Shown here: one piece after another, positions 3,564 to 52,699 of the stretch | Layout: each line of letters starts with the position of its first letter | Position numbering within the stretch: position 1 is the stretch's first letter | From: Scytonematopsis contorta HA4267-MV1 | GTDB taxonomy: Bacteria > Cyanobacteriota > Cyanobacteriia > Cyanobacteriales > Nostocaceae | DNA length: 64,000 nucleotides | Reading direction: 5' to 3' | Assembly (NCBI GenBank): GCA_019359035.1 | Contig: JAHHIC010000066.1 | Span: forward strand, 186,001 to 250,000 | Translations under genes and position numbers: made by a program | Notes under the pieces: generated by a model | What the model saw: only the letters and a program-made list of their open reading frames with translations | Told to the model about the DNA's origin: nothing | Database searches by the model: none

Positions 3564-4655
<1,092 letters not shown>

Positions 4656-4806
4656 GAATTGGGAATGGGTAATGGGTAATGGGTAATGGGTAATGGGTAA
4701 TGGGTAATGGGTAATGGAAGAAAACCAATCCCCAATTACCAATCCCCAATTACCAATCCCCAATTACCAATCCCCAATTACCAATCCCCAATTACCAATT
4801 ACCCAT
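4656..4806. repeat. Inverted tandem-repeat block: (GGGTAAT)n followed by (CCAATTACCAATCC)n
   Basis: Opposite arms are complementary (GGTAATGG / CCATTACC-type), so the block can fold. Confidence 0.9.
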
Positions 4807-5069
4807 TAGCAACCTTAAAAAATACGAAATGATTTAACAAAAGTGCATAGGAACACACAGCCAATTTCGGTTTTTGCCTCCTAGAATAGGGCTGAGACCG
4901 AAAAACAGGACTTTTTGTTTTATAGGCGACGTATAATTGGGAATAGGTACTTTTAGCTGCTATTTCAAGATATTTAGCAACCTCTCACCAATTATCGTGA
5001 ATTCAAGTTGGAGAAGGATTCGACGCAAGTTACATAAGTCCTGCGAAAAGAATCTTAACGAGGTGTTAT

Positions 5070-6068
5070 ATGTCTAAAAATTTACTTGAACAACTACGAG
5101 AAATGACCGTTGTAGTTGCGGATACAGGAGATATTCAAGCAATCGGCAAGTACAAGCCACGTGACGCGACAACTAACCCCAGTTTGATTACTGCTGCGGC
5201 AAAAATGCCTGAATATCAAGGCATTGTAGATGAAACTTTGTTAACAGCAAGAAAAGATTTAGGTGCTGGTGCATCAGAAAAAGAAATTCTTTCTTTAGCT
5301 TTCGACCGTTTAGCGGTTTCCTTTGGTTTGAAAATTTTGGAAATCATCCCCGGTCGAGTCTCTACAGAAGTTGATGCTCGTCTTTCCTACGATACAGAAG
5401 CAACTGTTGCTAAAGCACGGCAAATTATTTCCCAGTATGATAAGGCTGGTATTTCCAAGGAACGTATTTTAATTAAAATCGCTTCTACTTGGGAAGGTAT
5501 TCGTGCAGCAGAAATACTGGAAAAAGAAGGTATTCACTGTAACTTGACTTTGTTATTCGGTCTTCACCAAGCTATTGCTTGTGCTGAAGCAGGAGCGACT
5601 TTAATTTCTCCCTTCGTTGGACGGATTCTTGACTGGTACAAAAAGGAAACCGGACGCGATAGCTACCCCAGTGCGGAAGACCCTGGTGTATTTTCTGTAA
5701 CTAAAATTTATAACTACTACAAAAAGTTTGGTTATAAGACTGAAGTTATGGGTGCTAGCTTCCGTAATCTAGGCGAAATTACTGAACTTGCTGGTAGTGA
5801 TTTGTTGACTATCGCTCCTTCCTTGTTATCAGAATTGCAAGCTGGTACTGGGGAACTACCTCGCAAACTTGATGCTGCGAAAGCTGCAACAATGTCTATT
5901 GAAAAAATCACAATGGATAAAGCTACCTACGATAAGATGCACACTGAAGACCGTATGGCATCTGAAAAATTAGATGAGGGTATTAAAGGCTTTACTAAAG
6001 CTTTAGAAGACCTGGAGAAATTATTGGCTGAGCGATTGGCTACTTTGGGAGCTGTTTCTGCTGCATAA
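5070..6068 (+). CDS. tal: Transaldolase
   Basis: [40 protein letters not shown] and [11 protein letters not shown] motifs. Confidence 0.95.
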
Positions 6069-6116
6069 AAGTAGAGATGTTAAAGACCTGCAAATGAAAA
6101 AAAGCTCTAATTACTT

Positions 6117-6329
6117 CTTGTGGGATGGGCTTCCAGCCCGTCCGTTGCAGAAGGGCAGGCTTCCAGCCCGTCCGTTGCAGAAGGGCAGGCTTCCAGCCCG
6201 TCCGTTGCAGAAGGGCAGGCTTCCAGCCCGTCCGTTGCAGAAGGGCAGGCTTCCAGCCCGTCCACAGAACAAGGGCGGTTCCCAGCCCCTCTGTTGAACG
6301 AGGGCGGGCAAGGATGCCCACCCCACAAG
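6117..6329. repeat. Family-1 palindromic composite element with inverted ends CTTGTGGGATGGGC / GCCCACCCCACAAG
   Basis: Terminal inverted repeats; inner hairpins GGGCTTCCAGCCC and GGGCAAGGATGCCC. Confidence 0.85.
6131..6263. repeat. 30-bp tandem repeat (TTCCAGCCCGTCCGTTGCAGAAGGGCAGGC), four perfect units plus degenerate continuation
   Basis: Direct reading; frames through it give repetitive ORFs only. Confidence 0.95.
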
Positions 6330-6364
6330 AGAATAGTGTTTTCATTGGTAGAACAAGAAACAAT

Positions 6365-6757
6365 TTACCGACGTAAGTTTCCCTGAGTTTGTCGTTGTTG
6401 TCGTCTTAAGCGAAGTCTTTGAAAAAAGCCGGGTCGCTTATTAGAACGTTGTCTGAATCTAAACCCGCGAATAATGCCACGTCTGTTGGTGTTTTTGCGG
6501 GTTTGTGTTTTTCTGTCCCGTCGTCGGAAAAAGTTAAAGAATCCTCTTCTGGAACGACGTGCTTTTGGTTTTTCTCTTTGAGCGAGTAAAATTCCTTCGG
6601 TTTCACTGGTTTGACTTGGAGCTAGTGTTTTGGGACTTTTTTCATTCAGAGCGTTATTGGTGGGATTATCAATTGTTTCTGCTAATGAAAAAGGTATAGG
6701 ACAAGCTAAGGCAAACAGCAATATAACTATTAAAGATACTTTCTGAATATTTTTCAC
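6365..6757 (-). CDS. Secreted, strongly Arg-rich small protein
   Basis: Signal-peptide-like N-terminus (MKNIQKVSLIVILLFALACPIPFSLA) followed by an Arg-rich basic tail. Confidence 0.6.
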   Translation of the reverse strand: MKNIQKVSLIVILLFALACPIPFSLAETIDNPTNNALNEKSPKTLAPSQTSETEGILLAQREKPKARRSRRGFFNFFRRRDRKTQTRKNTNRRGIIRGFRFRQRSNKRPGFFQRLRLRRQQRQTQGNLRR

Positions 6758-6919
6758 TTTTTTGTTTGGATAATTACAATTTTAAGCATTCCGCGAAATT
6801 GTTAAACTTGCGCTCGGTTTTTCCAGATTATCCCCGGTTTTCCCGTTTACCTCCCCCATATTAAATACAAAATCAAAAATCGAAAATCGTATATTTCTGC
6901 AAATTCATAGGAAAAAATT

Positions 6920-8137
6920 ATGAAAATACTTGTACTTAATGCCGGTTCTAGCAGTCAGAAAAGTTGTTTGTACGAGATTACGGGTGAAACTATTCCTTCT
7001 ATTGCACCTCAAGCTCTTTGGTTCGCTAAGGTCGATTGGACGCATCATCAAGGTTTCGCGGAGATTGAGGTAAAAACTGTTGCAGGTGGAATGCTGCAAA
7101 AAGAAGTTTCTGCTTCCTCTCGTTCTGCTGTTATCAGTGATTTACTTGATACGTTGACTCAAGGTTCCACCAAAGTTATTAATGATTTCTCTGAAATAGA
7201 CGTGGTGGGACATCGAATTGTTCATGGTGGAAGAGATTATCGTCAAAGTGTCATAATTACTGAGGAAGTAAAACAGGCAATTTCTCAGTTAAGTAGTCTC
7301 GCTCCGGCTCATAATCCTGCAAATTTGGAAGGAATTGAAGCGATTGAGCAAGTTTTAGGTTCGGTTAAACAAGTCGCAGTTTTTGATACTGCGTTTCATT
7401 CGCAAATTCCTGATGCTGCTGCTATTTATCCCGGTTCATATGATTGGGTGGAACAGGGTATTCGTCGCTACGGATTTCACGGTATTAGTCACCAATATTG
7501 TGCTCAACGTGCAGCTAGTATATTGGGTAAAGATTTAAATGAGGTACGATTAATTACCTGTCATTTAGGTAATGGCTGTTCGTTAGCGGCTATTCAAAAT
7601 GGTCATAGTATTGATACTACGATGGGATTTACGCCTTTGGATGGGCTGATGATGGGTAGTCGTTCCGGTGCGGTTGACCCTGGCATATTAATACATTTGT
7701 TGCGTCAACCTGGTTATACAGTAGAGAAATTGGATAATTTGCTTAATAAAGAGTCTGGATTATTAGGTATATCTGGAGAATCTGGGGATGTTCGTGGGGT
7801 GATGCAGGCTATTTCTCAAGGTAAAGAACGCGCTCAGTTGGCTTGGGATATTTATGTACATCGTTTGCGTTCTTATATTGGGGCTATGCTTGCTAGTCTG
7901 GGTGGTTTGGATGCTTTGGTTTTTACTGCTGGTGTGGGTGAAAATTCTGCGGAAATTCGTCAAGCTGCTTGTGAAAGTTTTGCTTTTTTAGGGTTGAAAT
8001 TAGATTTAGAAAAAAATATTCGCAAACCTGTGGATATGGATATTGCTACTCCTGATTCTAAGGTGCGGGTGTTGGTGATACATACTCAGGAAGATTGGGC
8101 TATTGGTTGTGAGTGTTGGAGGTTGTTGCAACATTAG
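6920..8137 (+). CDS. ackA: Acetate kinase
   Basis: MKILVLNAGSSSQK, GHRIVHGG, AVFDTAFHSQIP and HLGNGCSLAAI motifs. Confidence 0.97.
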   Translation: MKILVLNAGSSSQKSCLYEITGETIPSIAPQALWFAKVDWTHHQGFAEIEVKTVAGGMLQKEVSASSRSAVISDLLDTLTQGSTKVINDFSEIDVVGHRIVHGGRDYRQSVIITEEVKQAISQLSSLAPAHNPANLEGIEAIEQVLGSVKQVAVFDTAFHSQIPDAAAIYPGSYDWVEQGIRRYGFHGISHQYCAQRAASILGKDLNEVRLITCHLGNGCSLAAIQNGHSIDTTMGFTPLDGLMMGSRSGAVDPGILIHLLRQPGYTVEKLDNLLNKESGLLGISGESGDVRGVMQAISQGKERAQLAWDIYVHRLRSYIGAMLASLGGLDALVFTAGVGENSAEIRQAACESFAFLGLKLDLEKNIRKPVDMDIATPDSKVRVLVIHTQEDWAIGCECWRLLQH

Positions 8138-8140
8138 TAG

Positions 8141-8496
8141 ATAAGCCACACAAGCTACACAAGCTACATAAGCCACACGAGCTACACAAGCCACACGAGC
8201 CACACAAGTCAAACAAGTCACACGAGGCACACAAGTCACACGAGGCACACAAGTCACACAAGTCACACAAGTCACACAAGTCACACAAGTCACACGAGCT
8301 ACACAAGTTACACAAGCCACACGAGCTAAACAAGTCACACAAGTCACACAAGTCACACAAGTCACACAAGTCACACAAGCCACACAAGTCACACAAGCCA
8401 CACAAGCCACACAAGTCATACAAGTCACACAAGCCACACAAGCCACACAAGCCACACAAGTCACACAAGTCACACAAGTCACACAAGTCACACAAG
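8141..8496. repeat. 9-bp tandem repeat (CACACAAGT), about 39 units, ending at a family-2 element
   Basis: Starts just after the ackA stop and ends CACAAGCCA|GGGAATAAATTCCCTG. Confidence 0.95.
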
Positions 8497-8545
8497 CCAG
8501 GGAATAAATTCCCTGTCTAAAAGCTCAAGTCCTCTGAAGAGGACT
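8495..8545. repeat. Family-2 palindromic element, copy A (CCAGGGAATAAATTCCCTGTCTAAAAGCTCAAGTCCTCTGAAGAGGACT)
   Basis: Two palindromes, AGGGAATAAATTCCCT and AGTCCTCTGAAGAGGACT; also found at 8611, 46393 and 48439. Confidence 0.9.
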
Positions 8546-8610
8546 ATAAAAAAGGAGATTTTTGGGAATATTCTAAATTTTGTAAAAATATCTTTTTTTG
8601 GTGTATTTTT

Positions 8611-8661
8611 TAGTCCTCTTCCAGAGGACTTGAGCTTTTAGACAGGGAATTTATTCCCTGG
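8611..8661. repeat. Family-2 palindromic element, copy B (inverted relative to copy A)
   Basis: AGTCCTCTTCCAGAGGACTTGAGCTTTTAGACAGGGAATTTATTCCCTGG. Confidence 0.9.
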
Positions 8662-8717
8662 CTATTGTCTGGCTATTGTCTGGCTATTGTCTGGCTATTG
8701 TCTGGCTATTGTCTGGC
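8658..8717. repeat. 11-bp tandem repeat (CTGGCTATTGT), 5 units, abutting copy B
   Basis: CCCTGGCTATTGTCTGGCTATTGTCTGG.. by direct reading. Confidence 0.95.
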
Positions 8718-8828
8718 TCGCTTGTGACCTAGCCCGCTTTGTATAAACAATTGCCACTTGCTGTGAAGTTAAGTTACGGTATTGGTTAACTTGATTACCA
8801 TCATTACTTAGTTCTTTCGCAAGCAAGG

Positions 8829-9665
8829 GTGAAAATGAGTGAACAAATACTGGAATCCAAAGAAAATGGGATTCCGAAAATAGTCTCTGCGTCTTTTCCA
8901 ACGCTGATAAAACTTTTATTCATATTGTTATGTGTATCAGGAATTGGTTTGCTGCAATTCCCTCGACTACAAACAGTTTTAAGAACCAACCAAACAGTAA
9001 CCAAGGAAACTTTAGAAAAAGACGTTCAAGCTGAACAAGCTCGTTTAAAATTACTTAAAAAAATACCGGGTTTTGGCTACGATAATATCATATCCAATTG
9101 GACATATCTAAGTTTTTTACAATATTTTGGAGACGACGAAGCTAGAGTCAAAACTGGTTTCCACATTAGTCCTGACTATTTTGAGATAATTTTGACAAAA
9201 GACCCGCGCTTTTTAACTGCATATTTTTCTCTTTCTAGCAGCACGTCTTTGTTTGCCGGGAAGCCTGAAAGGTCTATAAAAATAATTGAGCAAGGACTGA
9301 AATCTGTAAATCCTTGGGTTCCTGAAAGGTCTTATTATATATGGCGATACAAAGGAACAGATGAACTATTGTTTTTAGGTGATTCTCAGGCTGCGAAAAA
9401 ATCATTTGCAAAAGCTGCTGATTGGGCAAGCAATCATTCTGATGAAGAAAGTAAAGCCGTGGCTAGTATATCCCAGCAAACTGCTAACTTTCTCGCTCAA
9501 AATCCTGACAGTAAATATGCTCAAATTTCTACTTGGGCAATGGTTTTAAATAATCGAGTTGACGAGAAAACCCAAAAAAGAGCAATTGATGCAATTAAAG
9601 CTTTGGGAGGAGAAGTAATTAGTACTCCAAAAGGTAATCAAATTAAATTTCCGCCGAAAGATTAA
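8829..9665 (+). CDS. Membrane-anchored TPR-like hypothetical protein
   Basis: One N-terminal TM segment (FPTLIKLLFILLCVSGIGLLQF) followed by a helical repeat-like region. Confidence 0.6.
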   Translation: MKMSEQILESKENGIPKIVSASFPTLIKLLFILLCVSGIGLLQFPRLQTVLRTNQTVTKETLEKDVQAEQARLKLLKKIPGFGYDNIISNWTYLSFLQYFGDDEARVKTGFHISPDYFEIILTKDPRFLTAYFSLSSSTSLFAGKPERSIKIIEQGLKSVNPWVPERSYYIWRYKGTDELLFLGDSQAAKKSFAKAADWASNHSDEESKAVASISQQTANFLAQNPDSKYAQISTWAMVLNNRVDEKTQKRAIDAIKALGGEVISTPKGNQIKFPPKD

Positions 9666-10069: not shown

Positions 10070-10903
10070 TTGTATAACCAAACCGACCCCATATACTGGT
10101 ACAACGGTGAATTAATTCAATCCCAAACCCTGAAATTACCGATAGACGAACCAGGGTTACTCTACGGAGCTACTGTTTTTACTACCCTCCGCGTTTATGG
10201 CAACTCCCTTGACACACCCTTAACTCACTTCCAACCACATTGCGATCGCCTGCGTTTTAGCTTAGAAACTTTTGGCTGGCAATTACCAAACTGGGAAAGC
10301 CTGCGTCAGGGAGCGTCCATTCTCATAAAACATTACCCAATTCTCAGAATTACCATTTTTCCGGATGGTCGAGAATGGATAACGGGTAGATTTTTGCCGC
10401 CAAGCTTGACAGAAAAACAAATTAATGGAATAATATCGGCTACTTCACACCAAAAAATATTTCGTAGTTTACCAGAACATAAAACAGGAAATTACCTAAG
10501 TCCTTGGTTAGCAAGGAATAGAGCTATAAATTCAACAGTTGAAATAAAAGCAGAAGAAGCAATTTTGGTAGACACCAACTCAAATTGGTTAGAAACAAGC
10601 ACTGGTAACCTTTGGGGATGGAGTAATGGTTGTTGGTATACACCAGCAATAGAAGCAAAAATACTACCAGGGATAATCAGAAACCAACTCATCAACTACT
10701 TAAAATTACAAGAGCAACAAGTGCAAGAAAAAGCCTGGACACCAGAACTAGTCAAGAGTTTTGACGCGCTCGGCTATAGTAATTGCGTGGTGGAAATTAT
10801 TCCTATCCATACCGTCATAGACTCTAATGAAACGCTAGAATATAATCCCTGCCACAGTAGCTTTGAGCAAATAAGGCGGTTTTTTCGACTACCACAAGCG
10901 TAG
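10070..10903 (+). CDS. Class IV aminotransferase (aminodeoxychorismate lyase/BCAT-like)
   Basis: DEPGLLYGATVFTTLRVYG, NWLETSTGNLWGW and LPGIIRNQL motifs; TTG start. Confidence 0.85.
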   Translation: MYNQTDPIYWYNGELIQSQTLKLPIDEPGLLYGATVFTTLRVYGNSLDTPLTHFQPHCDRLRFSLETFGWQLPNWESLRQGASILIKHYPILRITIFPDGREWITGRFLPPSLTEKQINGIISATSHQKIFRSLPEHKTGNYLSPWLARNRAINSTVEIKAEEAILVDTNSNWLETSTGNLWGWSNGCWYTPAIEAKILPGIIRNQLINYLKLQEQQVQEKAWTPELVKSFDALGYSNCVVEIIPIHTVIDSNETLEYNPCHSSFEQIRRFFRLPQA

Positions 10904-11025
10904 CAATTTGATATATCTTAAGATAAGTTAACATAATTCTTAAATACGCCTATCTCATCTAGAGACGCGATGCCCAAAAAAAGGGCACACTGCGTGAAAG
11001 CGCATAGGGAAAAAAAGTAGGAGGA

Positions 11026-12879
11026 ATGGCATCGGTGAATAAGAGATGGAGAAATGCGGGACTATACGCGCTACTGTTTATTGTTGTCATCGCTTTAGGG
11101 ACAGCATTTTTTGATAAACAACCCCCAAGTAGAGAAACATGGCGATATAGCCAATTTATTCAAGAAGTTGAAAAAGGTAATGTAGAAAAAGTCAGCTTGA
11201 GTGCAGACCGCTCAACTGCAGTTATTCAACCCAAAGACGACCCCAGCAGAAAAGTTGTCACCTTGGTTAATGACCCAGAATTAATTAATACACTAACTAA
11301 AAAAGGTGTTGATATTAGTGTTTTGCCACAAACCGACGAAGGATTTTGGGTAAAGGCAGTTAGCAGCCTATTCTTCCCAGTCTTATTACTCGTAGGTTTG
11401 TTCTTCTTGCTACGTCGTGCCCAAAATGGACCGGGTAGTCAAGCGATGAACTTTGGCAAATCAAAAGCGAGAGTTCAAATGGAACCTCAAACCCAAGTTA
11501 CCTTCGGTGACGTTGCGGGTATTGACCAAGCCAAATTAGAACTTAACGAAGTTGTAGACTTCCTGAAAAACGCCGACCGTTTCACAGCAGTCGGAGCAAA
11601 AATTCCCAAAGGCGTATTATTAGTTGGACCTCCTGGAACAGGTAAAACCCTACTAGCGCGTGCAGTTGCAGGTGAAGCAGGTGTACCATTCTTCTCCATC
11701 TCTGGTTCTGAGTTTGTGGAAATGTTTGTCGGTGTGGGTGCTTCCCGCGTTCGCGACTTATTTGAACAAGCAAAAACCAACGCTCCTTGTATCGTATTCA
11801 TCGATGAAATCGACGCAGTGGGTCGTCAACGTGGAGCTGGTTTAGGCGGTGGTAACGACGAACGTGAACAAACCTTGAACCAGTTGCTTACCGAAATGGA
11901 CGGTTTTGAAGGTAACACAGGTATTATTATTATCGCCGCTACCAACCGTCCTGACGTGTTAGATGCAGCATTATTGCGTCCTGGTCGTTTCGACCGTCAA
12001 ATTGTCGTAGACCGTCCCGACTACGGTGGACGTGTAGAAATTCTGACAGTACACGCTCGTGGCAAAACATTATCCAAAGACGTGGACTTAGAAAGAATTG
12101 CTCGTCGTACACCAGGATTCACAGGTGCGGATTTATCTAACCTGTTAAACGAAGCAGCTATTTTGGCAGCACGACGGAATTTGACTGAAATTTCGATGGA
12201 TGAAATCAACGACGCTATCGACCGCGTGTTGGCTGGTCCAGAGAAGAAAGACCGCGTAATGAGCGAAAAACGCAAACAGTTGGTAGCTTACCACGAAGCG
12301 GGTCACGCCTTAGTTGGAGCATTAATGCCTGACTACGACCCAGTACAAAAAATTAGCATTATTCCTCGCGGTAGAGCAGGTGGTTTAACTTGGTTTACCC
12401 CCAGCGAAGACCGTATGGACAGTGGTTTGTACAGCCGTGCGTATTTAGAAAACCAAATGTCTGTAGCATTAGGTGGACGCATCGCAGAAGAAATAATCTT
12501 CGGCGAAGAAGAAGTAACCACCGGTGCATCTGGAGACTTGCAACAGGTTGCACGTGTTGCTCGTCAAATGGTGACAAGATTTGGTATGAGTGAAAAACTC
12601 GGACCAGTAGCCCTTGGTCGCCAACAAGGTAACATGTTCCTCGGACGCGACATTATGTCAGAGCGTGACTTCTCAGAAGAAACCGCTTCTACCATTGATG
12701 AAGAAGTTCGTAAACTGGTAGATACAGCTTATGACCGTGCTAAAAAAGTACTGGAAGAAAACAAACACATTCTCGACCAATTAGCCGACATGCTAGTTGA
12801 AAAAGAAACCGTAGATGCCGAAGAACTCCAAGAAGTTCTGGCAAGAAATGACGTAAGAACAGCAGCATTTAGCTCTTAG
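11026..12879 (+). CDS. ftsH: ATP-dependent zinc metalloprotease FtsH
   Basis: [51 protein letters not shown] zinc motif. Confidence 0.98.
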
Positions 12880-12929
12880 AATTTAGACTAATTTTCTGCG
12901 ATAAACATTAAATAACCATATTTACTAAC

Positions 12930-12959
12930 ACCTGCTTTTTTGTAAAAGCAGGTTTTTTT
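12930..12959 (+). terminator. Rho-independent terminator after ftsH
   Basis: CCTGCTTTTTTGTAAAAGCAGG followed by TTTTTTT. Confidence 0.85.
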
Positions 12960-12970
12960 GACTAAAGATT

Positions 12971-13066
12971 CGTAGGTTGGGTTGAGGAACGAAACCCAAC
13001 AAAAGCTGCAAATGTTGGTTTATCCGAAGCGGACGCTACGCGAACGTTCCTCAACCCAACCTACAA
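12971..13066. repeat. Inverted repeat GTAGGTTGGGTTGAGGAACG .. CGTTCCTCAACCCAACCTAC
   Basis: About 20-bp matching arms with an about 55-bp loop. Confidence 0.8.
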
Positions 13067-13239
13067 CTAGAGATGTTAATTTATTCTTAATTATTAGTTA
13101 ATTAATAAAATCTCTATTATTAATGTAACTACTTGTACAAATATTTGTACTTATTATTAAAATAATTATGTAATATTGTTATTATCAATTTCTCAAAAAT
13201 GAGATATTTTTTGAGTCATTATACTTAGCAAGGAAGATT

Positions 13240-14559
13240 ATGGGAAATCCAGACTGTTGCGACTTATCCTCTCCGCAAGAACTGGAAGTTTGTAGTCCCA
13301 GTCTAAGTTTAGAAGCAAGGCTTCAAGACTTACCACTGTGTGAGATGCAAATAAAAACTTGCTGTTCAACTTCTTTGTTAGCCACTAAATTTGAATCTAA
13401 CCCTCTAATACCTGGTATAACACTGATAGAAAAAGATGAGTTTGTAGGTATGATATCGCGAAGAAGATTTTTTGAATTTATGAGTAGTCATAAAAAATAT
13501 CATACCTATGATAATCAATCAATTAAAAATCTTTACAGTGACATACAACCAGAGAATTTCATACTACCAGAAGAAACTTTAATTGTTACTGCAGTCCAAA
13601 AAGTTTTAAGCCGTCCTCAAGAAGAGCGCTATGAACCAATAATTGTCAAATCTAAATCTAACAAATACTATGTATTAGATGTATATAGATTACTAGTTGC
13701 CCAAAATAAAATTCATGAATTAGCAACAAAATTATTGCGAGAGAAAACGCAGTCTTTGTTAATACAAACAGAAAAAATGACAAGCCTGGGTAAGATGGTA
13801 ACAGGGGTTGCTCATGAAATCAAAAATCCAGTTAACTGTATTGCTGGTAATTTTAATTTTCTCTCAAATTATTTTAAAAATTTATTAGAGTTGATAGTCG
13901 CATATGGTGAAGAATGTATAGACCCTTCAGAAAAAATAACAGAAATAAAGGAAAGAATAGAATTTGATTTTTTAATCCAAGATTTAGCGAAAATTTTAGA
14001 AAGTATTAATGTCAGTTCCAATAGACTAACCCAAGTAACCACAAGTTTACGAAATTTTTCTAGAATTGATGACAAAAAACGTCAGAAAGTAGATATACAT
14101 GAATGCATCGACAGTACATTACTAATTTTATCTAGTCAGATAAAGCGAGGTATTAAAGTAATTAAAAATTATGGTCAATTGCCAAAAATAAAATGTTACC
14201 CAGGTCAACTAAGCCAAGTATTTATGAACCTTTTAAGTAATGCGATTGATGCCTTAATAGAAAGTAAAGTCAACTCACAAGATTGGCAACCTTGGATTGA
14301 AATTACCACACAACTCATAGAAGAAGAAAACGAACAAAGTATAATTATAAAAATAGCTGATAACGGTACAGGTATACCAACTGAAATTCAAAAAAATATT
14401 TTTGAAGATTTCTTTACCACTAAACCCGTGGGTAAAGGTACAGGTTTAGGTTTAGCAATAAGCTATGAAATAGTCACAAAAAAACATGGGGGAAAAATGC
14501 AAGTATTTTCCCAACCAAATATCGGTAGTGAATTTCAAATAATATTGCCAATTGGCTAA
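13240..14559 (+). CDS. Sensor histidine kinase with CBS-like N-terminal region
   Basis: H-box GVAHEIKNPVNCIAGN, N-box NLLSNAIDAL, G1 DNGTGIP, G2 GKGTGLGLAIS. Confidence 0.9.
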   Translation: MGNPDCCDLSSPQELEVCSPSLSLEARLQDLPLCEMQIKTCCSTSLLATKFESNPLIPGITLIEKDEFVGMISRRRFFEFMSSHKKYHTYDNQSIKNLYSDIQPENFILPEETLIVTAVQKVLSRPQEERYEPIIVKSKSNKYYVLDVYRLLVAQNKIHELATKLLREKTQSLLIQTEKMTSLGKMVTGVAHEIKNPVNCIAGNFNFLSNYFKNLLELIVAYGEECIDPSEKITEIKERIEFDFLIQDLAKILESINVSSNRLTQVTTSLRNFSRIDDKKRQKVDIHECIDSTLLILSSQIKRGIKVIKNYGQLPKIKCYPGQLSQVFMNLLSNAIDALIESKVNSQDWQPWIEITTQLIEEENEQSIIIKIADNGTGIPTEIQKNIFEDFFTTKPVGKGTGLGLAISYEIVTKKHGGKMQVFSQPNIGSEFQIILPIG

Positions 14560-16042: not shown

Positions 16043-16332
16043 ATTGTTATACCTATAGCTATAAGATAAGTGTTTCGACTTACAATTTAAACCTAAAAAC
16101 TTACAAAAGTTGATGCTTTCTAGTTATATATGTTAGCGTGTAGGTGTAAAGAATTATGTTTGTAGTATTTTAAACAAAAATCTCAGTGGTGCAAAGTAAG
16201 CAGGGATGCAAAAACTGGGATAAAAGCCATAATTTAGTTCTAATCAAAAGGTTCTTGATTATTTTAAGTATTTTGACTGTAAGTAATTAATCTAAAAATT
16301 ATCCAGTAAAATTTATATTTGGAACTTGCTAA

Positions 16333-16752
16333 ATGATACCATTTGAATTTGTTGTCATTGGTAAACCAATTTCCCACCAAGCTAAAGACCGCAAGCGTCT
16401 GAAAGATTGGAAAGAAAAAGTTCGTAAGACTGCTGAGGCTTATTGGCAAGGGAAATTACCTATTGGCGATTTGATAACAGTTGTAATTACACATTATTAT
16501 GATGCAATACCTGGTGATGAGTCATCAGTCCCCGATAGTGACAATATTGTAAAGCCCGTTAGAGATGCATTGAATGGTTTAATTTATGTTGATGACTATC
16601 AAATTACTGATTTTATCAGTCGTCGGCGTAATTTGAATGCTTCTTTTAGAATAAAAGGATTAACTCCCGCTTTAGCTGAAGGTTTTACTAAGGGGGAAGA
16701 ATTTTTGCACATTAAAATTGAAGCAGCACCAGACCCAGAAAATTTGTTTTAA
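16333..16752 (+). CDS. RusA-family Holliday junction resolvase-like endonuclease
   Basis: PDSDNIVKPVRDALNGLIYVDDYQITD is the RusA-type acidic motif. Confidence 0.85.
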   Translation: MIPFEFVVIGKPISHQAKDRKRLKDWKEKVRKTAEAYWQGKLPIGDLITVVITHYYDAIPGDESSVPDSDNIVKPVRDALNGLIYVDDYQITDFISRRRNLNASFRIKGLTPALAEGFTKGEEFLHIKIEAAPDPENLF

Positions 16753-16983
16753 AAAGTAGAAATATAAGGTATAGTGGGATACTACGAGGATTCACTTATG
16801 CTAATAAAATAAGTTAGAAGACAGGGCCGATTAGCAAATAATAATGCTGCTAGCGACAATTATTAATTTTCTCACCAGGCAATATTTTTCCTTAATTTAA
16901 AGATTAACAATCTATAATTTCCAAAATTAGACTCTGTATTCTTATCCATAATTTAGTTATGGTTGTTGATTATTAGTGCTTGG

Positions 16984-17030
16984 CAGTCAACAGTTAACAG
17001 TCAACAGTCAACAGTCAAAAGTCAACAGTT
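16984..17030. repeat. Heptameric STRR (CAGTCAA)n
   Basis: CAGTCAACAGTTAACAGTCAACAGTCAACAGTC. Confidence 0.85.
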
Positions 17031-17052
17031 ATAGTTGAACACCTTAATAATC

Positions 17053-17388
17053 ATGAACTTCCAGAATAATACAAATTCTTTACTAGAACACCGTAGACTA
17101 CTGCAGCTTGCTAATGAGTATCTTCGTAAGGGTTATTCAGTTAGTATCTACCCTTCTTCAGAGAAATTACCCCCAAAATTAGCAGGATTATCTCTTGATT
17201 TAATCGCTGAGAACGGAAGTGAAGTTGTTGCAGCGAAAGTCCGTACACGGGAGACACTTTCGTTAAATGGTTCGGAGGATTTACTTCGCATTAGTAAATT
17301 AGTTGAGCAACTTCCTGGCTGGGAATTTGAACTAGTTGTCACCAATCCACGCAAATTCACATCAGCGTTGGTGGGGAGTAGGGAGTAG
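17053..17388 (+). CDS. REase_AHJR-like (archaeal Holliday junction resolvase-like nuclease fold) protein
   Basis: ANEYLRKGYSVSIYPSSEKLPPKLAGLSLDLIAENGSEVVAAKVRTRETL..WEFELVVTNPR. ATG at 17053 is preferred over the TTG at 17035. Confidence 0.6.
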   Translation: MNFQNNTNSLLEHRRLLQLANEYLRKGYSVSIYPSSEKLPPKLAGLSLDLIAENGSEVVAAKVRTRETLSLNGSEDLLRISKLVEQLPGWEFELVVTNPRKFTSALVGSRE

Positions 17389-17430
17389 GGAGTGGGGAGT
17401 AGAGAGTGGAGTAGGGAGTGGGAGTAGTCC
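17371..17430. repeat. Heptameric STRR (GGGGAGT/AGGGAGT)n
   Basis: GTGGGGAGTAGGGAGTAGGGAGTGGGGAGTAG; the stop codon of the preceding ORF lies within it. Confidence 0.9.
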
Positions 17431-17974
17431 ATGCATAACCGCAAGGTCGTCCTCTGGACTTACAACCCTACCTACAGACAGCGAAAAGAATTAGTATAAA
17501 TTAAAACATCTATATGCCAATTAAAGTTTGAGTTTCACTTTTTAAGAGAATAGTATTTTTTAATTTTTAGCTAAAAGAGCTTAATTTAAGGGGCTGCTTA
17601 GTCAAACATCTGTAACAACCTTTGTATTGAAGAGCTACTAGCCCCATTGCCTATAGTAGGGCTTAGGTTAAGTAGATGTGAAACTACTGGGATTATTATG
17701 AAGATATAGTGATTTTTGTTGCGAATTTTAATAGTAAAAATGCTGATATTTCCTTAGTCTACGGGGGTTTTGACAATTACGGCTATTACTGAAGGCAGAG
17801 GTATTCGAGTTGTATTTTGTGATAGTCTATCAGAAGTCTTACTTATTATTGTTAACACTACCATCTCTGGGAAAGTTTATGTAGACAATATTAGAACTTT
17901 TGTTCTAATGCTTCAAAGACAGTTCCCAATTTATTTGTAAATTTATTTTTCTTTATAAAAGGGTAAAACGGGGT

Positions 17975-37775: not shown

Positions 37776-37993
37776 CTTGTGGGATGGGCTTCTAGCCCGT
37801 CCATAAGCAAGGAACTTAAGCAAAGAACTAGCAAGGGCAAGGGCAAGGGCAAGGGTAAGGGCAAGGGCAAGGGCAAGGGCAAGGGCAAGGGCAAGGGCAA
37901 GGGCAAGGGCAAGGGCAAGGGCAAGGGCAAGGGCAAGGGCAAGGGCAAGGGCAAGGGCAAGGGCAAGGGCGGGCAAGGATGCCCACCCCACAA
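37776..37993. repeat. Family-1 palindromic composite element with expanded core
   Basis: Inverted ends CTTGTGGGATGGGC / GCCCACCCCACAA, same architecture as 6117-6329. Confidence 0.9.
37833..37970. repeat. Hexanucleotide tandem repeat (AAGGGC), 23 units, one AAGGGT variant
   Basis: Direct count; overlapping ORFs are low-complexity artefacts. Confidence 0.97.
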
Positions 37994-42009: not shown

Positions 42010-42215
42010 CCTCATTTTCCTAATCCCACTCATCCTCACTCATCATCACTCATCCTCACTCATCTTCCTAATCCCCTCATCTTCCTAATCCTCACTCATC
42101 TTCCTAATCCCACTCATCCTCACTCATCATCACTCATCTTCCTAATCCCACTCATTCTCACTCATCATCACTCATCCTCGCTCATCTTCCTAATCCCCTC
42201 ATCTCCCTAATCCTC
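42010..42215. repeat. Pyrimidine-rich tandem repeat (ACTCATCMTC / CTTCCTAATCCC)
   Basis: Repeated blocks; next to a decayed family-1-like end (GGGGCAAGAGAAAGACCACCCCACAAG). Confidence 0.85.
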
Positions 42216-42289
42216 CTCATCTTAAGAACTGAGCGGGGCAAGAGAAAGACCACCCCACAAGAGAAGAAGTTATTGTGCTTCTTTTTTAG

Positions 42290-42604
42290 TTAGCTGGCAA
42301 TAGCAATATCGTTATCACTATCATCCTCGTCTAAGCCAAATTTTTCGTACAATTGGTTAACGGATTGAGGCTCGATAGTTTTTTGTTTGGCACGTTGCAA
42401 AGCTGCGAATAAGCGAGTTGAATTTGCTGGAAAACGAAGTAAATAAAGGGTTTCCAGTAAACTATCGAGTTCCGTCTCAGAAATCAATACAACATTTTTT
42501 CCATCTGGTCGGTTAATTATAACTACTTCGCTATTTTCAATAACTTGATTGCAAATGCTCTCTAAATTTTTGGTGGCTTCTTCTGATGTAATTTTTATCG
42601 ACAT
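42290..42604 (-). CDS. Phd/YefM-family antitoxin
   Basis: MSIKITSEEATKNLESICNQVIENSEVVIINRPDGKNVVLISETELDSLLETLYLLR. Confidence 0.9.
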   Translation of the reverse strand: MSIKITSEEATKNLESICNQVIENSEVVIINRPDGKNVVLISETELDSLLETLYLLRFPANSTRLFAALQRAKQKTIEPQSVNQLYEKFGLDEDDSDNDIAIAS

Positions 42605-42641
42605 AATAAATCCCCAGCTAATTTTTATAGTTTTTAATATC

Positions 42642-42929
42642 TTATTCGTAGTGATATCGGGCTTTAAGAAAATCAATTCGGTTATCGTAAACTAAATAAA
42701 CGAGTCGATGTTCTTGATTGATACGACGCGACCAGCACCCAGAATACTCATATTTTAACTGCTCTGGCTTACCGATGCCTTCAAGCGGTTGTCGTAAAGT
42801 TTCTTTGACTATTTTAAGTATACGAAGTGCGATTTTTCGGTCTTTGTCAACCCAATATTCTAAGTCTTCTAGAAACTCTGGCTGAAATACAGCTTCGCGT
42901 TCTTGTTTAATGTCATCCTCAGCACCCAT
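42642..42929 (-). CDS. Txe/YoeB-family mRNA interferase toxin
   Basis: FLEDLEYWVDKDRKIALRILKIVKETLRQPLEGIGKPEQLKYEYSGCWSRRINQEHRLVYLVYDN..KARYHYE. Confidence 0.92.
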   Translation of the reverse strand: MGAEDDIKQEREAVFQPEFLEDLEYWVDKDRKIALRILKIVKETLRQPLEGIGKPEQLKYEYSGCWSRRINQEHRLVYLVYDNRIDFLKARYHYE

Positions 42930-43066
42930 AGATTTAGAACTTTTCGAGCATATTTTCAATTTAATGCTCAATTTACAAATCAGTAAAGTCAATTTGTATA
43001 AATCCTAACCTAATATAACCAAACTTTCTGTCCAAAGTATCTACTCAAATTGGAATTTTTCCTGCA

Positions 43067-43140
43067 CTCTGAGTGCTCGACATCAATATAAAATATAAAA
43101 ACAAACAGTTTGTCTACCAGGAGGATGGTTTACATAGGTT
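43067..43140 (-). pseudogene. Relic of a second SF2 helicase copy
   Basis: CTCTGAGTGCTCGACATCAATAT..AAAAACAAACAGTTTGTCTACCAGGAGGATGGTTTACATAGG aligns with 45105-45172 inside the intact helicase. Confidence 0.75.
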
Positions 43141-43173
43141 TAAATTTTCTTTTAAGTAATATCGATAGCTGCT

Positions 43174-43884
43174 TTATAAATACAAAGCCTTGCGTGTTGA
43201 GCTAACAGATGAAGAGAGAATTTCTGATGCTAATTCTATTTCTTCTAAAGTTGTGAATTTTCCGATACCAATACGTAATGCTCCTTCGATTAATTCTGGT
43301 GTTAAATTCATTGCAGTAAGAACATGAGAAGGGGTTTCGACACCTGACGAGCAAGCAGAACTCGTAGAAATAGCTAGAGAGTGACGAACTCTAGCAATAA
43401 TCGCGCTGTTGGGAACATCAGGGATAGAGATATGTAGATTTCCTACTAGGCGGCAATTAACATCACCATTGACTACTAAACCAGGAATTTTCTCGAAAAG
43501 TAAGCTTTGTAATTTATCTCGAAGCTTGGTGATCGCTTTTTCATCTTCTTCCATTTCCAGTAACCGCAAGCGACAAGCTTCTCCTAAACCAACGATACCA
43601 GGGACGTTAAGAGTTCCAGACCTTAACCCTTTTTGATGACCGCCACCAAATAAAATAGGCTTTAGGTGATGTCCTTTTCTTACAATTAACGCACCTGAGC
43701 CTTTTGCTGCATATAATTTATGGGCAGAAATCGCTAGGTAAGTAATTCCCCATTCTTCAAAATTAACAGGGATTTTCCCCACGGCTTGGGAAGCGTCACA
43801 CAAAAAAGGGGTGTTATACTTTTTCGCAATTTGTCCAGCTTCTGCGATTGGGTAAATATTTCCAATTTCGTTATTAGCTGCCAT
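43174..43884 (-). pseudogene. 5'-truncated cysteine desulfurase (IscS/NifS/DndA-like)
   Basis: Homology begins at LLCVMAANNEIGNIYPIAE. PLP-Lys ISAHK and active-site SSACSSG are retained; the N-terminal third is missing and an in-frame TGA lies just upstream. Confidence 0.8.
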
Positions 43885-43983
43885 TACGCAAAGCAGTGAT
43901 AATCCAGATGCACATCACATACTTTTTCTAAGTGTTCTAAGTCTAACTACCTTTTGAATCAACTTGGAGGCTGATAATTTGAG

Positions 43984-46275
43984 CTAAACTTTAGTAAAAT
44001 TTTGACGAGAATAGTATTTTAGTAAGGCTGATGAGGCTAGTTTTTCCAATTGTTGTTTGTCTTGGTCACTGAGGCTTTTCCACAAAGATTTTTCAAATTG
44101 TAGGACGGTTATTTCTTTAAGACGGTTGACGAATTTGCGACGCTCAAATTTTTCAAATGGTTTTGCGAGCATAATGCTTTCAATTTGATTTTCTGAAAGC
44201 TCGGTTACGCGAGACATTTGTTTTCGTTCACCTTCTGGTACTAAACCTTGTTCAAGTCTTTGTCGGTAAAAATCTCCAAAATAGGTGGTGAGTTCTTTTA
44301 TCTGGATTCGACCTGCGGAGTCAGCAAGTTTTAATAAGCCTAAGAGTAAAACGGGTTTGTAGGATGTGTTCATGTCCATTTGTTCTACAAACTCAAAAAA
44401 ACGTTTTTTAATGTTTTCGTTGGTGATGGGAGCGATATTAAAGGTTGTTCTGATTTCTTCTAAACGCTCCTTTTTAAAATAGTGATAAACTCGTGTACCC
44501 AGTTGGATACTGTGGTCTGGGGTGATACGCTGGGATTCTATCCATCGTCTGACAACACTTTCACCAATACCTAATGCTGCTTCTAATTCGCTTGCTTGGT
44601 ACATTTCTTTTACTTCATCTTGCCATCGAAAAATATCAATTGGTTCATAGCGATTGACCCAGAGGTTTAGGGTTAGCATGACTACTGGTTTTTCCCCTTT
44701 GGCAATTTGTTGTTGCTCTTGTTCTATCATTTCTGGAGGTGCTGCAATTAATGCACCAGGACGATAATTGTTTTTACCAAATAACTGGTGAGCGCTCATT
44801 GCTTGAGCATAACGAGTTGTATTATCTATAAAGTCAAAAACTAATAAATATTCTTTACCTGAAGCTGGACGAGTTCCACGTCCTAATTGTTGAACGTATA
44901 CAACTTTGCTGAGGGTTGGACGTGCCATTAATAAAACTTCTGTTTCTGGGGAATCCCAACCTTCGTTTAAAATGTCGCAAGCACACAGTACTTGAATATT
45001 TCTTGTTTGATAAGCTTCAAGAATTTCTTGTCTTTGGTTATGTCCCATTCTCCCAGAAACATGAGCAGCTTGAACTCCATGTCGCAGAAATTCGCTAGCC
45101 ATACGTTCTGAGTGTTCGACATCGATACAAAAACAAACTGCTTGTTTTCCAAGAGCATGGTTTACATAGGTCTGGGCAATTAATTCATCTCGACTAGGAA
45201 CGAAGAGATATTTACCTAAATCATTACTACGGTAATCTACTCCGTTGAAACGGATATTAGTTAAATCAATGTTGGTCTGAACTCTTACACAGCGAATTGG
45301 TACTAATAAACCACGAGCTATTGCATCTTCTAAATCTAGCCTATGAGCATAATTTTCAAATATCTCAGTTAAAGATTGCCCATCATGTCTTTCGGGTGTA
45401 GCAGTTAGTCCTAAAATAAATTTAGCTTGAAAATAACCAATGACTTTCCGATAAGTTTCTGCTGCTGCGTGATGAGCTTCATCAATAATTATATAACCAA
45501 ACTCCCGCTTATCAAAGTTGCTCAGAGATGTTGCCATTGCTTGAATTGTTGATAAGACAATCTGTGTATTTGGTTTCAGGTGACGCGGACGATATATTGC
45601 AGAATTGTCATTGCTCCAAATTTTTGTAAATCTGTCTTGCGTTTGTGACAGAAGAGGTGTTCTGTGAGCTAAGTATAATGTCCTCAGTCCCATATTTTTG
45701 GCATCAGATAAGGCAATATGAGTTTTACCTGTACCTGTTGCATGGGTGAGTAAAGCAATTGTTTTGCCTTGGTTTCTGAGATTTTCTAACTGTTGCAGTG
45801 CGTCTGTTTGATGGGAGCGTAGAGAAATTTCGCTTGCTTGTTGACGAGGTAAAAAACCATCGAGTGTTCCTTCTATAATTTCACGTTCTAGGAAAAGCAA
45901 TAGTTGTTCTTTTATGCGCTCTTTGTCTACAGCTAGCTGAACATCTGTCCATCTGTAAACTTTCCATCCCTGATAAACAAGGCTATTTTGACGTAACAGT
46001 TCATCGCGGTAAGTTTGTGGGTCTACCATCGCACCCCCAGGAGCGTGCCATGCTTCTCCATCAATTTCAAATGCGTATTTATCTAGTCGCGAAATAAAAG
46101 CGAAGTCTATAAATCTGCCTGTACTGTAAATATCTGAAACTGGATATTGAGGAATTAGTAATTGGGTGCGCTCGAATCCTAATGCTTCCTGAAAAATATC
46201 AACAAATAAGTCTTCGCTAGAACTACTTTCTGCGGCTCTTTGTGTGTTAATCAGTTCATTAGGTTGAGGTTCCAT
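43984..46275 (-). CDS. SF2 DEAD/DEAH helicase with N-terminal Vsr/DUF559-like nuclease fold
   Basis: THATGTGKTHIAL, IIIDEAHHAAAETYR, LTATPER and QQLGRGTRP; N-terminal FIDFAFISRLDKYAFEIDGEAWH..YRDELLRQNSLVYQGWKVYRWT. Confidence 0.9.
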   Translation of the reverse strand: MEPQPNELINTQRAAESSSSEDLFVDIFQEALGFERTQLLIPQYPVSDIYSTGRFIDFAFISRLDKYAFEIDGEAWHAPGGAMVDPQTYRDELLRQNSLVYQGWKVYRWTDVQLAVDKERIKEQLLLFLEREIIEGTLDGFLPRQQASEISLRSHQTDALQQLENLRNQGKTIALLTHATGTGKTHIALSDAKNMGLRTLYLAHRTPLLSQTQDRFTKIWSNDNSAIYRPRHLKPNTQIVLSTIQAMATSLSNFDKREFGYIIIDEAHHAAAETYRKVIGYFQAKFILGLTATPERHDGQSLTEIFENYAHRLDLEDAIARGLLVPIRCVRVQTNIDLTNIRFNGVDYRSNDLGKYLFVPSRDELIAQTYVNHALGKQAVCFCIDVEHSERMASEFLRHGVQAAHVSGRMGHNQRQEILEAYQTRNIQVLCACDILNEGWDSPETEVLLMARPTLSKVVYVQQLGRGTRPASGKEYLLVFDFIDNTTRYAQAMSAHQLFGKNNYRPGALIAAPPEMIEQEQQQIAKGEKPVVMLTLNLWVNRYEPIDIFRWQDEVKEMYQASELEAALGIGESVVRRWIESQRITPDHSIQLGTRVYHYFKKERLEEIRTTFNIAPITNENIKKRFFEFVEQMDMNTSYKPVLLLGLLKLADSAGRIQIKELTTYFGDFYRQRLEQGLVPEGERKQMSRVTELSENQIESIMLAKPFEKFERRKFVNRLKEITVLQFEKSLWKSLSDQDKQQLEKLASSALLKYYSRQNFTKV

Positions 46276-46320: not shown

Positions 46321-46390
46321 CAAGCAGATTTGACCAGATTTAGCCAGATTCAGCCAAATTCAGCCAGATTCAGCCAGATTCAGCCAGATT
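46321..46390. repeat. 10-bp tandem repeat (CAGCCAGATT), 7 units, abutting a family-2 element
   Basis: Distal units degenerate (CAAGCAGATT, TGACCAGATT, TAGCCAGATT, CAGCCAAATT), proximal three perfect. Confidence 0.95.
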
Positions 46391-46392
46391 CA

Positions 46393-46442
46393 GCCAGGGA
46401 ATAAATTCCCTGTCTTAAAGCTAAAGTCCTCTGAAAGAGGAC
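46393..46442. repeat. Family-2 palindromic element, copy C
   Basis: GCCAGGGAATAAATTCCCTGTCTTAAAGCTAAAGTCCTCTGAAAGAGGACT. Confidence 0.9.
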
Positions 46443-49453: not shown

Positions 49454-52400
49454 TTAAATATCTAAATCATTCAGATTCAGCTTAGACCCATAAGTCTCAA
49501 TAAACTCACGACGAGGAGCCACCCTATCACCCATTAAAATCGTGAAAATCCGGTCAGCTTCCGCAGCATCCTCAATTTCCACCTGTTTAAGTGTCCGAGT
49601 TTCCGGGTTCATCGTCGTTACCCAAAGTTGTTCCGGCATCATTTCACCCAAACCTTTGAATCGTTGAATATTGTAATTAGCGTTCGCAGGTAAGGTAGCC
49701 AAATGCTGACTTAACTCCCTTTCGCTATAACAATACTGGTAATTTTTACCCCGTTCCACCTTAAAAAGTGGCGGACAAGCAATATATATATATCCTTGTT
49801 CAATCAGTCCTCGTTGATATCGATAGAAGAAAGTTAACAACAGCGTACGGATATGCGCCCCATCAACGTCAGCGTCAGTCATAATAATGATACGATGATA
49901 CCGAAGTTGAGAAACATCAAATTCTTCACCCTTAACACCCAAACCCAGTGCTGTGATTAGCGATTGGACTTCATTGTTTTTATAGATTTTAGAATCGTCC
50001 GTCTTTTCAATGTTAAGAATTTTACCTCTCAAAGGTAGAATTGCTTGAAAACGTCGGTCACGTCCTTGCTTAGCGCTGTTATGGATAAATACACCACTTG
50101 CCAAAGCAAAATTATGGCTGTTAGGCACCTCGATGTCATAAACATCCCTCACTCCATCTAGCCGCTCAATAGAGACCGCTCGGTGGTTATAGTTAGTAAC
50201 AGCTTTCTTTGCTTTAAGCTCTTGGTCATTAAAATAGCGTTTGCAAAAGGTATCCCAACGCAACAAGGAGTTATCTTTCAAGCGCCGACGGTAGGATTCA
50301 TATACCTCAGGGTCTAGCCAGCCTGTTTGAATTTGTACCTCTTTCAAAGCAGCAATTGTTTTCCAGTAGTAGGTACGTTCCAGTTTTTCGCGGCGTTTGT
50401 CACGAAACTCCCAAGTCCATTGCTCTTTTGTCTTTTCACTTCGCCATGCTAACAAATCCTTGTCTTCCCATTGCTTTTTCGCAAGAATTGAATTCCGCTC
50501 GCGTGCTTCTGGGTTATTAGCAAAATAATTACGAACTCGTTCCGACTGCGCTAATCGATTTTCCTCATCACTCCAATATTCTTGCTGAATACGATTTAGC
50601 TGTTCGTTGTTTTCTTGGCGGTAAGCTTCATTATTTTCATAAAACTCACGCCATTTTTGCGTCATGTAAGCCTTGTAAGTTTCATCCTCCCATTGTGCCT
50701 GAGCCTGCTTAGAAAGAATTTGCCTTGTGTCTTCTCTCCGCATCCTTTCGCTCATAAAAGCGCGAAATTCTTCAGTCATATGACCTTGACGGATTTTTTC
50801 AACTACATCTGGTCTACGCAAGGTTTTTTCAACGTTTTTGCGGTGTAATTCCAGATGTGCTTCCGCAGGCAAGCGCTGGATATTGGTGGGATTATTATTA
50901 CGTTTATCGAAGTCCACATGATGCCTGTGATTACCATCCTCAGCTTGGTAAACACCATGCTCCAAATTGTAGAAATCCGCTAACAAGTGAGTATAAATCC
51001 ACTTATCGTTCTTGGGATTCCACGCCATCTCGTAGCCATCAAGTCCAGTACCTCGTTCATTTTTTGCAGATACTTTGCGGTGTATCGGCATCAACGAGTC
51101 TTCTGGAGTTAGCAACGCAGCAGCCTTAAAAGTGCCGTCCCTCAACATAAAGGGGTGGTCTGGGGTACAAATTATTGTTTCCCCATTATCCAACGTCACT
51201 TTGATAACTTCTGCATTAGATTTAGTTTTACGTGCATGAAGGATAGGTTCTATACCAATATTTCCGCTTTCCCTGATGGTATAACAGAAGTTTTGTTTTC
51301 CCTGCTCCTGCTCTTCGATAATCTCTTTGAGTGTTAATGTACGTCCATCAGCAAGTAGAATCTGCGTGTATAAATCACAACAGCCTCCAGCACTATCCCC
51401 TTCCACCAAATATATCTCCGATTCGCTAGGGTCTCTGGTAGAGCAATCAGCCAATTTACCAGGTAAAGGAGAGGATTCCAAAACGGATTTGCGTCGTACC
51501 AACTCCCGTGCGTGACGAGCAGCTTCAGCCGCTTTAAAAGCTTGAATAGCCTTATCTAAAATAGAGTCAGCAACACCAGGATGAAACTCCAGGTACTCAG
51601 TAAGAACTTCTCCCACCAGGGATTCTACGATACCTCTTACTTCCGTATTCCCCAACTTAGTTTTAGTTTGTCCTTCAAACTCAGGGTCAGGAACTTTTAC
51701 AGAAATAACAGCAGTTAAACCCTCGCGGACATGTTCCCCACTCAAATTAGATTCGTTCTCTTTTATTTTGTTTCGTTTACGGGCGAGAGTATTCATCGTC
51801 CGAGTCAAAACAGCCTTTAAACCTTCGAGGTGCGTACCACCATCAACAGTACGGATATTATTAGCAAAGCCCAAAACGTTATCAGAATAAGCATCGCTAC
51901 ACCATTGCAGCGCTACTTCTACCTGTACGTTACTGCGTTCCCCTTGCACGAAAATAATTTCTTCGTGTTGAGGTTGCTTATCTACGTTCATGTAGGCTAC
52001 ATATTCGCGGATACCACCTTTGTACTCATAAGTTTCAACCTTAGGCGTCTCACTTTTAATTACTTCTAGACGGTTATCAGTAAAAGTAATTTTAACGCCG
52101 CCATTTAGATAAGCTAATTCCCGTAAGCGACCAGATAAGGTAATATAATCAAATTCCGTACCAGTACTAAAAATTTGGTCATCCGGTTTAAATTTTACGG
52201 CAGTACCAGTAAGTTCAGGTTCTTTAGAAGATTGAATTTTTAATTCAGCCTGAGGAATACCGCGTTCAAAGCGTTGGGTATGTACTTTTTTGTCACGCCA
52301 AACAGTAACTTCCAACCATTCCGACAAAGCATTAACAACCGAAACACCAACCCCGTGGAGACCACCAGAAACTTTGTAACCGCCGCCACCAAACTTACCA

Positions 52401-52699
52401 CCAGCTCCTAGCACGGTAAGTACAGTTTCCAGCGCCGATTTTCCCGTCTTAGTATGAGTATCAACAGGAATTCCGCGACCATTATCTTGTACCCCACAAG
52501 ACCCATCGGGATTAAGCTCAATCTCCACACTAGTACAATAACCCGCCAAAGCTTCATCAATTGAGTTATCCACTACCTCATAAACTAGATGATGTAGTCC
52601 TCTTGTACCAGTTGTACCAATGTACATACCCGGTCGTTTACGGACGTGTTCCAGACCTTCCAGAACTTGAATCTGTTCAGCGCTGTAACTGTTCGTCAT
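49454..52699 (-). CDS. gyrB: DNA gyrase subunit B, interrupted by an intein
   Basis: GyrB motifs ([29 protein letters not shown]|..|[22 protein letters not shown]). Confidence 0.97.
   Translation of the reverse strand: [1081 protein letters not shown]
50078..51382 (-). mobile_element. GyrB intein (435 aa) with HNH-type homing endonuclease region
   Basis: N-terminal [13 protein letters not shown] after EGDSAGG; C-terminal [13 protein letters not shown] before SAKQG; [32 protein letters not shown] is HNH-like. Confidence 0.95.

Follow-up and report, generated by a model that had tools for sequence, protein, structure and literature searches.

The window analysed here is a 64,000-nucleotide stretch of the 10.66-Mb genome of Scytonematopsis contorta HA4267-MV1 (C66:186001-250000). 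As the initial annotation had described, it contains an intact gene for an SF2 helicase, whose reading frame is free of stop codons, together with a truncated cysteine desulfurase gene (sspA) and a relic of a second helicase gene. Ssp denotes single-strand DNA phosphorothioation systems and Dnd the double-strand phosphorothioation systems. The features of the locus, all on the minus strand, are as follows:

43984..46275 (-), nuclease-SF2 helicase, intact, 763 aa, candidate Ssp restriction effector (profile matches and relatives)
45841..46224 (-), helicase residues ~18-145, putative N-terminal PD-(D/E)XK-like nuclease domain (weak MTES_1575/DUF559 matches and conservation)
44806..45840 (-), helicase residues ~146-490, SF2 helicase/translocase core (ResIII, Helicase_C, PDB 7clg)
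44431..44610 (-), helicase residues ~556-615, possible MerR-like helix-turn-helix (weak MerR_1/HTH_17 and weak Foldseek matches)
44005..44430 (-), helicase residues ~616-757, conserved C-terminal domain, proposed target or modification reader (column conservation and model)
43882..43984 (-), frameshifted stretch of sspA, codons ~115-147, running up to the helicase stop codon (homology in other frames)
43174..43884 (-), sspA remnant (cysteine desulfurase), C-terminal 236 codons in a single open frame (PF00266 and relatives)
43067..43140 (-), second-copy fragment of the helicase gene, 74 bp, residues ~369-390, with a 7-bp insertion (blastn)
42290-42992 (-), YefM-like antitoxin and YoeB-like toxin pair, immediately downstream of the sspA remnant (profile matches)

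The desulfurase open reading frame (236 aa) covers positions 146-369 of the 371 in PF00266, and the alignment bears out the earlier observation that the N-terminal part is missing and that the PLP lysine (SAHK) and the SSACSSG cysteine are kept. Upstream of this frame, homology to sspA continues in two other frames at 43882-43984 (codons ~115-126, 128-145 and 137-147 of the intact gene) and reaches the helicase stop codon, which implies that ~115 codons were deleted and ~33 more frameshifted; so one deletion took the intergenic DNA together with the ~115 sspA codons, and two frameshifts came after. The gene is classed as an SspA-family pseudogene, being less than full-length with both the catalytic lysine and the catalytic cysteine present.

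The remnant is 72-73% identical to the Ssp-linked SspA of two relatives (G048 and G431), and a maximum-likelihood tree places it inside the Ssp-linked clade with 100/99 support, a split that separates it from the genome's own NifS (encoded in the nif operon), its own IscS and the paralogues. The window desulfurase is not a housekeeping IscS or NifS. Desulfurases that share 50-78% identity with it cluster separately from the IscS-type paralogues, which share 40-46%. Genes for SspB/C/D/F/G/H lie at 24 of the 35 clade loci within the stretch read (at most about 10 kb either side), and three further loci carry other modules of the same slot; at the control loci of IscS-type paralogues, Ssp genes were found in none of three. 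PADLOC scores of the partners are exemplified by one locus with SspB, SspC and SspD (L098; 392, 1472 and 381 bits) and one with SspF, SspG and SspH (L087; 800, 681 and 2374 bits). Association with sspBCD holds for the desulfurase orthologues (24/35 loci), not for the window copy itself. An IscS-like desulfurase whose orthologues never lie near this helicase, the pattern that the initial annotation had set against its own proposal, is therefore not what was found.

By sequence the window desulfurase is no nearer to the structure of Vibrio SspA (6m4j) than to IscS, and because sequence alone does not favour 6m4j the name SspA rests on clade membership and gene neighbourhood. The profile comparison suggested earlier was run, and it does not tell DndA and SspA apart (PADLOC SspA 263.7 versus DndA 262.6 bits); since a truncated protein scores alike against both, we dropped profile scores as a discriminator between the two. 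NCBIfam scores (NifS 228, IscS 196-200, DndA 189 bits) all fall below their cut-offs because the protein is truncated.

The 74-bp fragment at 43067-43140 matches helicase positions 45105-45172 on the same strand. Blastn against the 64-kb window gives this match E = 1e-11, with 56 of 65 aligned bases identical and an insertion of 7 bp. The identity of the fragment is 86% to the window helicase versus 79% to the closest relative, the helicase of G431. Because the fragment is about as distant from the window helicase as the G431 helicase is in the same stretch, a second copy is plausible; the match is real and a former copy is supported, the 74 bp being compatible with a partial as well as a complete one.

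The helicase retains all of its motifs (Walker A GTGKT, DEAH, TATP and QxxGRGTR) and a core recognized by ResIII (1.2e-37) and Helicase_C (9e-14) in Pfam, and the closest solved relative of its motor is SauUSI (PDB 7clg, E 6e-52 over 357 residues). The N-terminal domain gives weak, consistent matches below the curated cut-offs to MTES_1575 (E 4e-5) and to DUF559, a PD-(D/E)XK family; 90 of its 128 columns are invariant in six proteins, including D57, E70, D72 and Q96. The sub-threshold matches and the motif conservation hint that this domain may be a PD-(D/E)XK-like nuclease. Residues ~556-615 weakly match the MerR_1/HTH_17 profiles, and MerR-type DNA-binding proteins are among the weak Foldseek matches. 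In the C-terminal domain, 60 of 142 columns are invariant in the six proteins; its structure model (pLDDT 80) found no PDB match below E 0.2 in Foldseek, leaving the fold unrecognized, and a full-length model, for which three sequences were used, was too poor to be of use (pLDDT 43). A YKP...LLL...PF motif in this domain resembles the sulfur-binding domain (SBD) of ScoMcrA-type readers, a resemblance of motif only: the SBD comparison gave P 0.03 in hhalign, and no SBD is among the Foldseek matches listed. The SBD reading stays unproven because it draws on the motif, the profile and fold comparisons not being significant.

Profile searches of the helicase returned no SspE/F/G/H match and no system-specific match in PADLOC 2.0, no PLD or SRA match in Pfam, and 76 bits against TIGR04095 (PbeA), whose curated cut-off is 600. 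A scan of the contig collection recovered only L054; the plasmid collection yielded matches to the helicase core only, none spanning 80% of the protein, and the viral contigs yielded none. The six intact proteins (window, G431, L054, G762, G888 and G679) are 67-89% identical, the window helicase sharing 80% identity with G431 and 67-69% with the other four. Between window and G431, dN is 0.13 and dS is saturated; lineage-specific changes number 26 versus 18 (p = 0.29), so the rate is not raised and the window helicase evolves at a normal rate.

All seven genomes with this helicase, which comprise those of the six intact proteins (L054 being taken as G818) and G048, where the gene is cut by insertion sequences, carry it beside Ssp genes (7/7). 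The closed genome G762 holds the whole locus, with sspB, sspC, sspD and sspA together with the helicase, all on the plus strand of L149:

2879-3817 (+), SspB
3814-7338 (+), SspC
8080-8892 (+), SspD
10547-11488 (+), second, divergent DUF4007 protein
11768-12004 (+), Xre
12033-14321 (+), helicase
16276-17457 (+), SspA (Uma2 genes lie in between)

G048 has the same gene set interrupted by insertion sequences. G431 (L131) carries SspB, SspC with its 3' end lost, the helicase, a toxin-antitoxin-like pair and SspA, with SspD absent at the locus; L054 carries a second DUF4007 protein, the helicase and a frameshifted SspA with an inserted gene pair; G888 has Xre, an intact helicase and a 5'-truncated SspA that starts 24 bp past it; and G679 has SspC, DUF4007 pieces, Xre and the helicase, with no sspA found in 17 kb. 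The second DUF4007 protein is absent in G431 and the window. The consensus order in the relatives is sspB, sspC, sspD, [divergent DUF4007 gene, xre], nuclease-helicase, sspA, and the synteny comparison proposed in the initial annotation thus places the helicase between SspBC(D) and SspA. Elsewhere in G048 (L047, L048), more partial helicase copies occur with transposases.

Other modules occupy the same slot in related loci. G321 encodes SspF, SspG and SspH, the restriction module already known for Ssp, between SspD and SspA, and about a dozen other loci have a PbeA-like helicase and a GHKL ATPase there, often with a PLD protein. In L098, L095, L108, L096 and L105 the slot is filled by DndB-like proteins, either by themselves or paired with a protein of 221-227 aa. 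In G834 and G772 a 3'-terminal scrap of the nuclease-helicase gene (its last ~55-85 codons) stands between SspFGH and the Uma2 and SspA genes, and in G691 a DndB-like module precedes the same type of 3'-end scar, again ahead of sspA. Such scars beside other modules are the leftover expected of a cassette swap, which supports the view that the helicase module and SspFGH are alternatives and suggests that Ssp effectors are exchanged as cassettes between sspD and sspA. Position in the slot is association rather than function, as Uma2 and toxin-antitoxin genes occupy it without being effectors. Two minor observations concern these loci: the PbeA-like helicase (~540 aa) with the GHKL ATPase, often with the PLD protein, was noted in L088, L090, L096, L097, L101, L102, L105, L110 and L116; and partial 5' copies of sspA, which may mark cassette insertion, lie at 3190-3366 in L054, 8469-8612 in L094 and 11030-11182 in L154, each with a further sspA copy just downstream and genes between.

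The initial annotation had recommended a search of the genome for dnd and ssp genes. SspC and SspD were not found in the window genome in searches with working positive controls, nor was DUF4007/SspB in a search run without one; lacking sspB, sspC and sspD genome-wide, the window locus is a remnant rather than an Ssp system. A dndC-dndD locus lies on another contig (L043, C47:27000-46000) with a TIGR04095 PbeA-like helicase and a PbeC-type ATPase, and no desulfurase is among the open reading frames listed there. The 64-kb window holds no dnd gene, so no dndBCDE accompanies the desulfurase. In another genome (G035; L129/L121), a truncated sspA has part of sspC on one side and dndC/dndD on the other, so that an Ssp remnant adjoins a Dnd locus, and a Dnd-like locus of G198 (L128) carries an SBD-HNH gene (PDB 8h0l, 1e-11) and a second SBD-like gene at 11988-12965 and 12969-13541 (-).

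We consider it probable that the stretch represents the remains of an Ssp phosphorothioation locus of an undescribed subtype, with the nuclease-helicase as its restriction effector. The initial annotation, which had proposed a decayed Dnd-like or other sulfur-linked defence locus, had the kind of system right, and the system is Ssp rather than Dnd, the desulfurase orthologues being neighbours of SspB/C/D and the helicase lying, in relatives, between SspBC(D) and SspA. We infer an undescribed restriction effector of Ssp because a PD-(D/E)XK-like nuclease, a SauUSI-like motor, a MerR-like helix-turn-helix and a conserved C-terminal domain appear combined in the slot of SspFGH. In an intact locus, SspA would mobilize sulfur from cysteine and SspB, SspC and SspD would insert it into the backbone of host DNA; the C-terminal helix-turn-helix and conserved domain of the helicase would bind DNA or read its modification state, the SF2 motor would translocate on DNA, and the N-terminal domain would cut invading DNA much as SauUSI or a type I restriction subunit does. 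In the window genome the sulfur-writing half would have decayed and the motor-nuclease persisted, possibly under selection of its own.

The competing account that survives best, possible though not the one we would choose, is that the helicase is ordinary debris, an intact but unused leftover of Ssp that will decay as sspA has. The absence of sspB, sspC and sspD, the broken sspA and the frequency of helicase scars in other genomes accord with it, and after a recent loss of its partners a helicase would remain intact for a time. However, the helicase keeps its full 763 codons and every catalytic motif, with no rate increase relative to G431, and in G888, which separately lost the 5' part of sspA, the helicase is likewise intact, as it is in G679 with no sspA in 17 kb. 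Retention of the helicase in two lineages (window and G888) whose sspA was independently truncated from the 5' side suggests that the helicase may have a role of its own. It is unlikely that the protein acts alone as a modification-dependent (type IV-like) restriction enzyme and merely shares a defence island with Ssp: its motor is closest to SauUSI and it persists without SspBCD in the window genome, yet it is Ssp-linked in 7/7 genomes at a fixed place between sspC/D and sspA. That the locus is a Dnd relic is very improbable, since, although the DndA and SspA profiles score alike and the window genome has dndC and dndD, the orthologues occur with SspB/C/D, the helicase lies in Ssp loci, the 64-kb window has no dnd gene and dndC/dndD accompany just one of the clade members seen, the truncated G035 copy next to an sspC piece. 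As an extension of the restriction-effector reading, the helicase could be a single-protein phosphorothioation-sensing restriction motor that reads the backbone through its C-terminal domain, the orphan still protecting its host by exploiting marks that the separate Dnd system makes, an idea that we regard as doubtful.

Compared with SspABCD-SspFGH (PMC8092258), the locus type shares homologues of SspB, SspC, SspD and SspA and, in cyanobacterial loci (L126/L087), the placement of an effector module between SspD and SspA; it differs in having one nuclease-SF2 helicase in place of SspFGH, to which an Xre regulator and a second DUF4007 protein are usually added, and the window locus has lost the writer genes. 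SauUSI, an ATP-dependent type IV enzyme (PMC7913695; 7CLG), is similarly a single chain with an N-terminal nuclease, an SF2 translocase of the same family and a C-terminal recognition part; its nuclease is of the PLD type and its reader an SRA domain, whereas the window helicase has the PD-(D/E)XK-like domain, the MerR-like helix-turn-helix and the unrecognized C-terminal domain. PbeABCD (dnd_restrict_1, TIGR04095) likewise links an SF2 helicase to DNA phosphorothioation, and one such helicase is encoded at the dnd locus of the window genome, but identity to the window helicase is just 24% over the motor, and architecture and locus type are different. Type 4 BREX (PMC12839542) has DUF4007, a BrxC/SspC-type ATPase and a PAPS reductase in common, unlike which no PglZ- or BrxL-like gene is seen among the locus ORFs of G762, G431 and G048, judged by size and order.

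According to PMC8092258, most of 2,678 surveyed sspBCD loci lack both sspE and sspFGH, and its authors raised the possibility of unknown restriction partners. The nuclease-helicase module is not described in the accessible parts of the literature on Ssp and phosphorothioate neighbourhoods (PMC8092258, PMC10853773, PMC12839542 and others), and within that literature the nuclease-helicase Ssp locus is an undescribed subtype. Given its fixed slot, the replacement scars and the closed genome in which the whole locus is present, the helicase is a concrete and testable candidate for one of the missing restriction partners of sspBCD.

The window neighbours (Uma2, PD-(D/E)XK and a 97-aa ORF) were considered as Ssp leftovers and rejected, having no match to the Uma2 or divergent DUF4007 proteins of Ssp loci. 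Simple tandem repeats occur at 37831-37978 (6-bp unit), 42023-42221 (10-bp) and 46334-46397 (10-bp), the last just upstream of the helicase start, and the gyrB frame (1081 aa, 49454-52699, minus strand) apparently contains an intein with an HNH-like segment.
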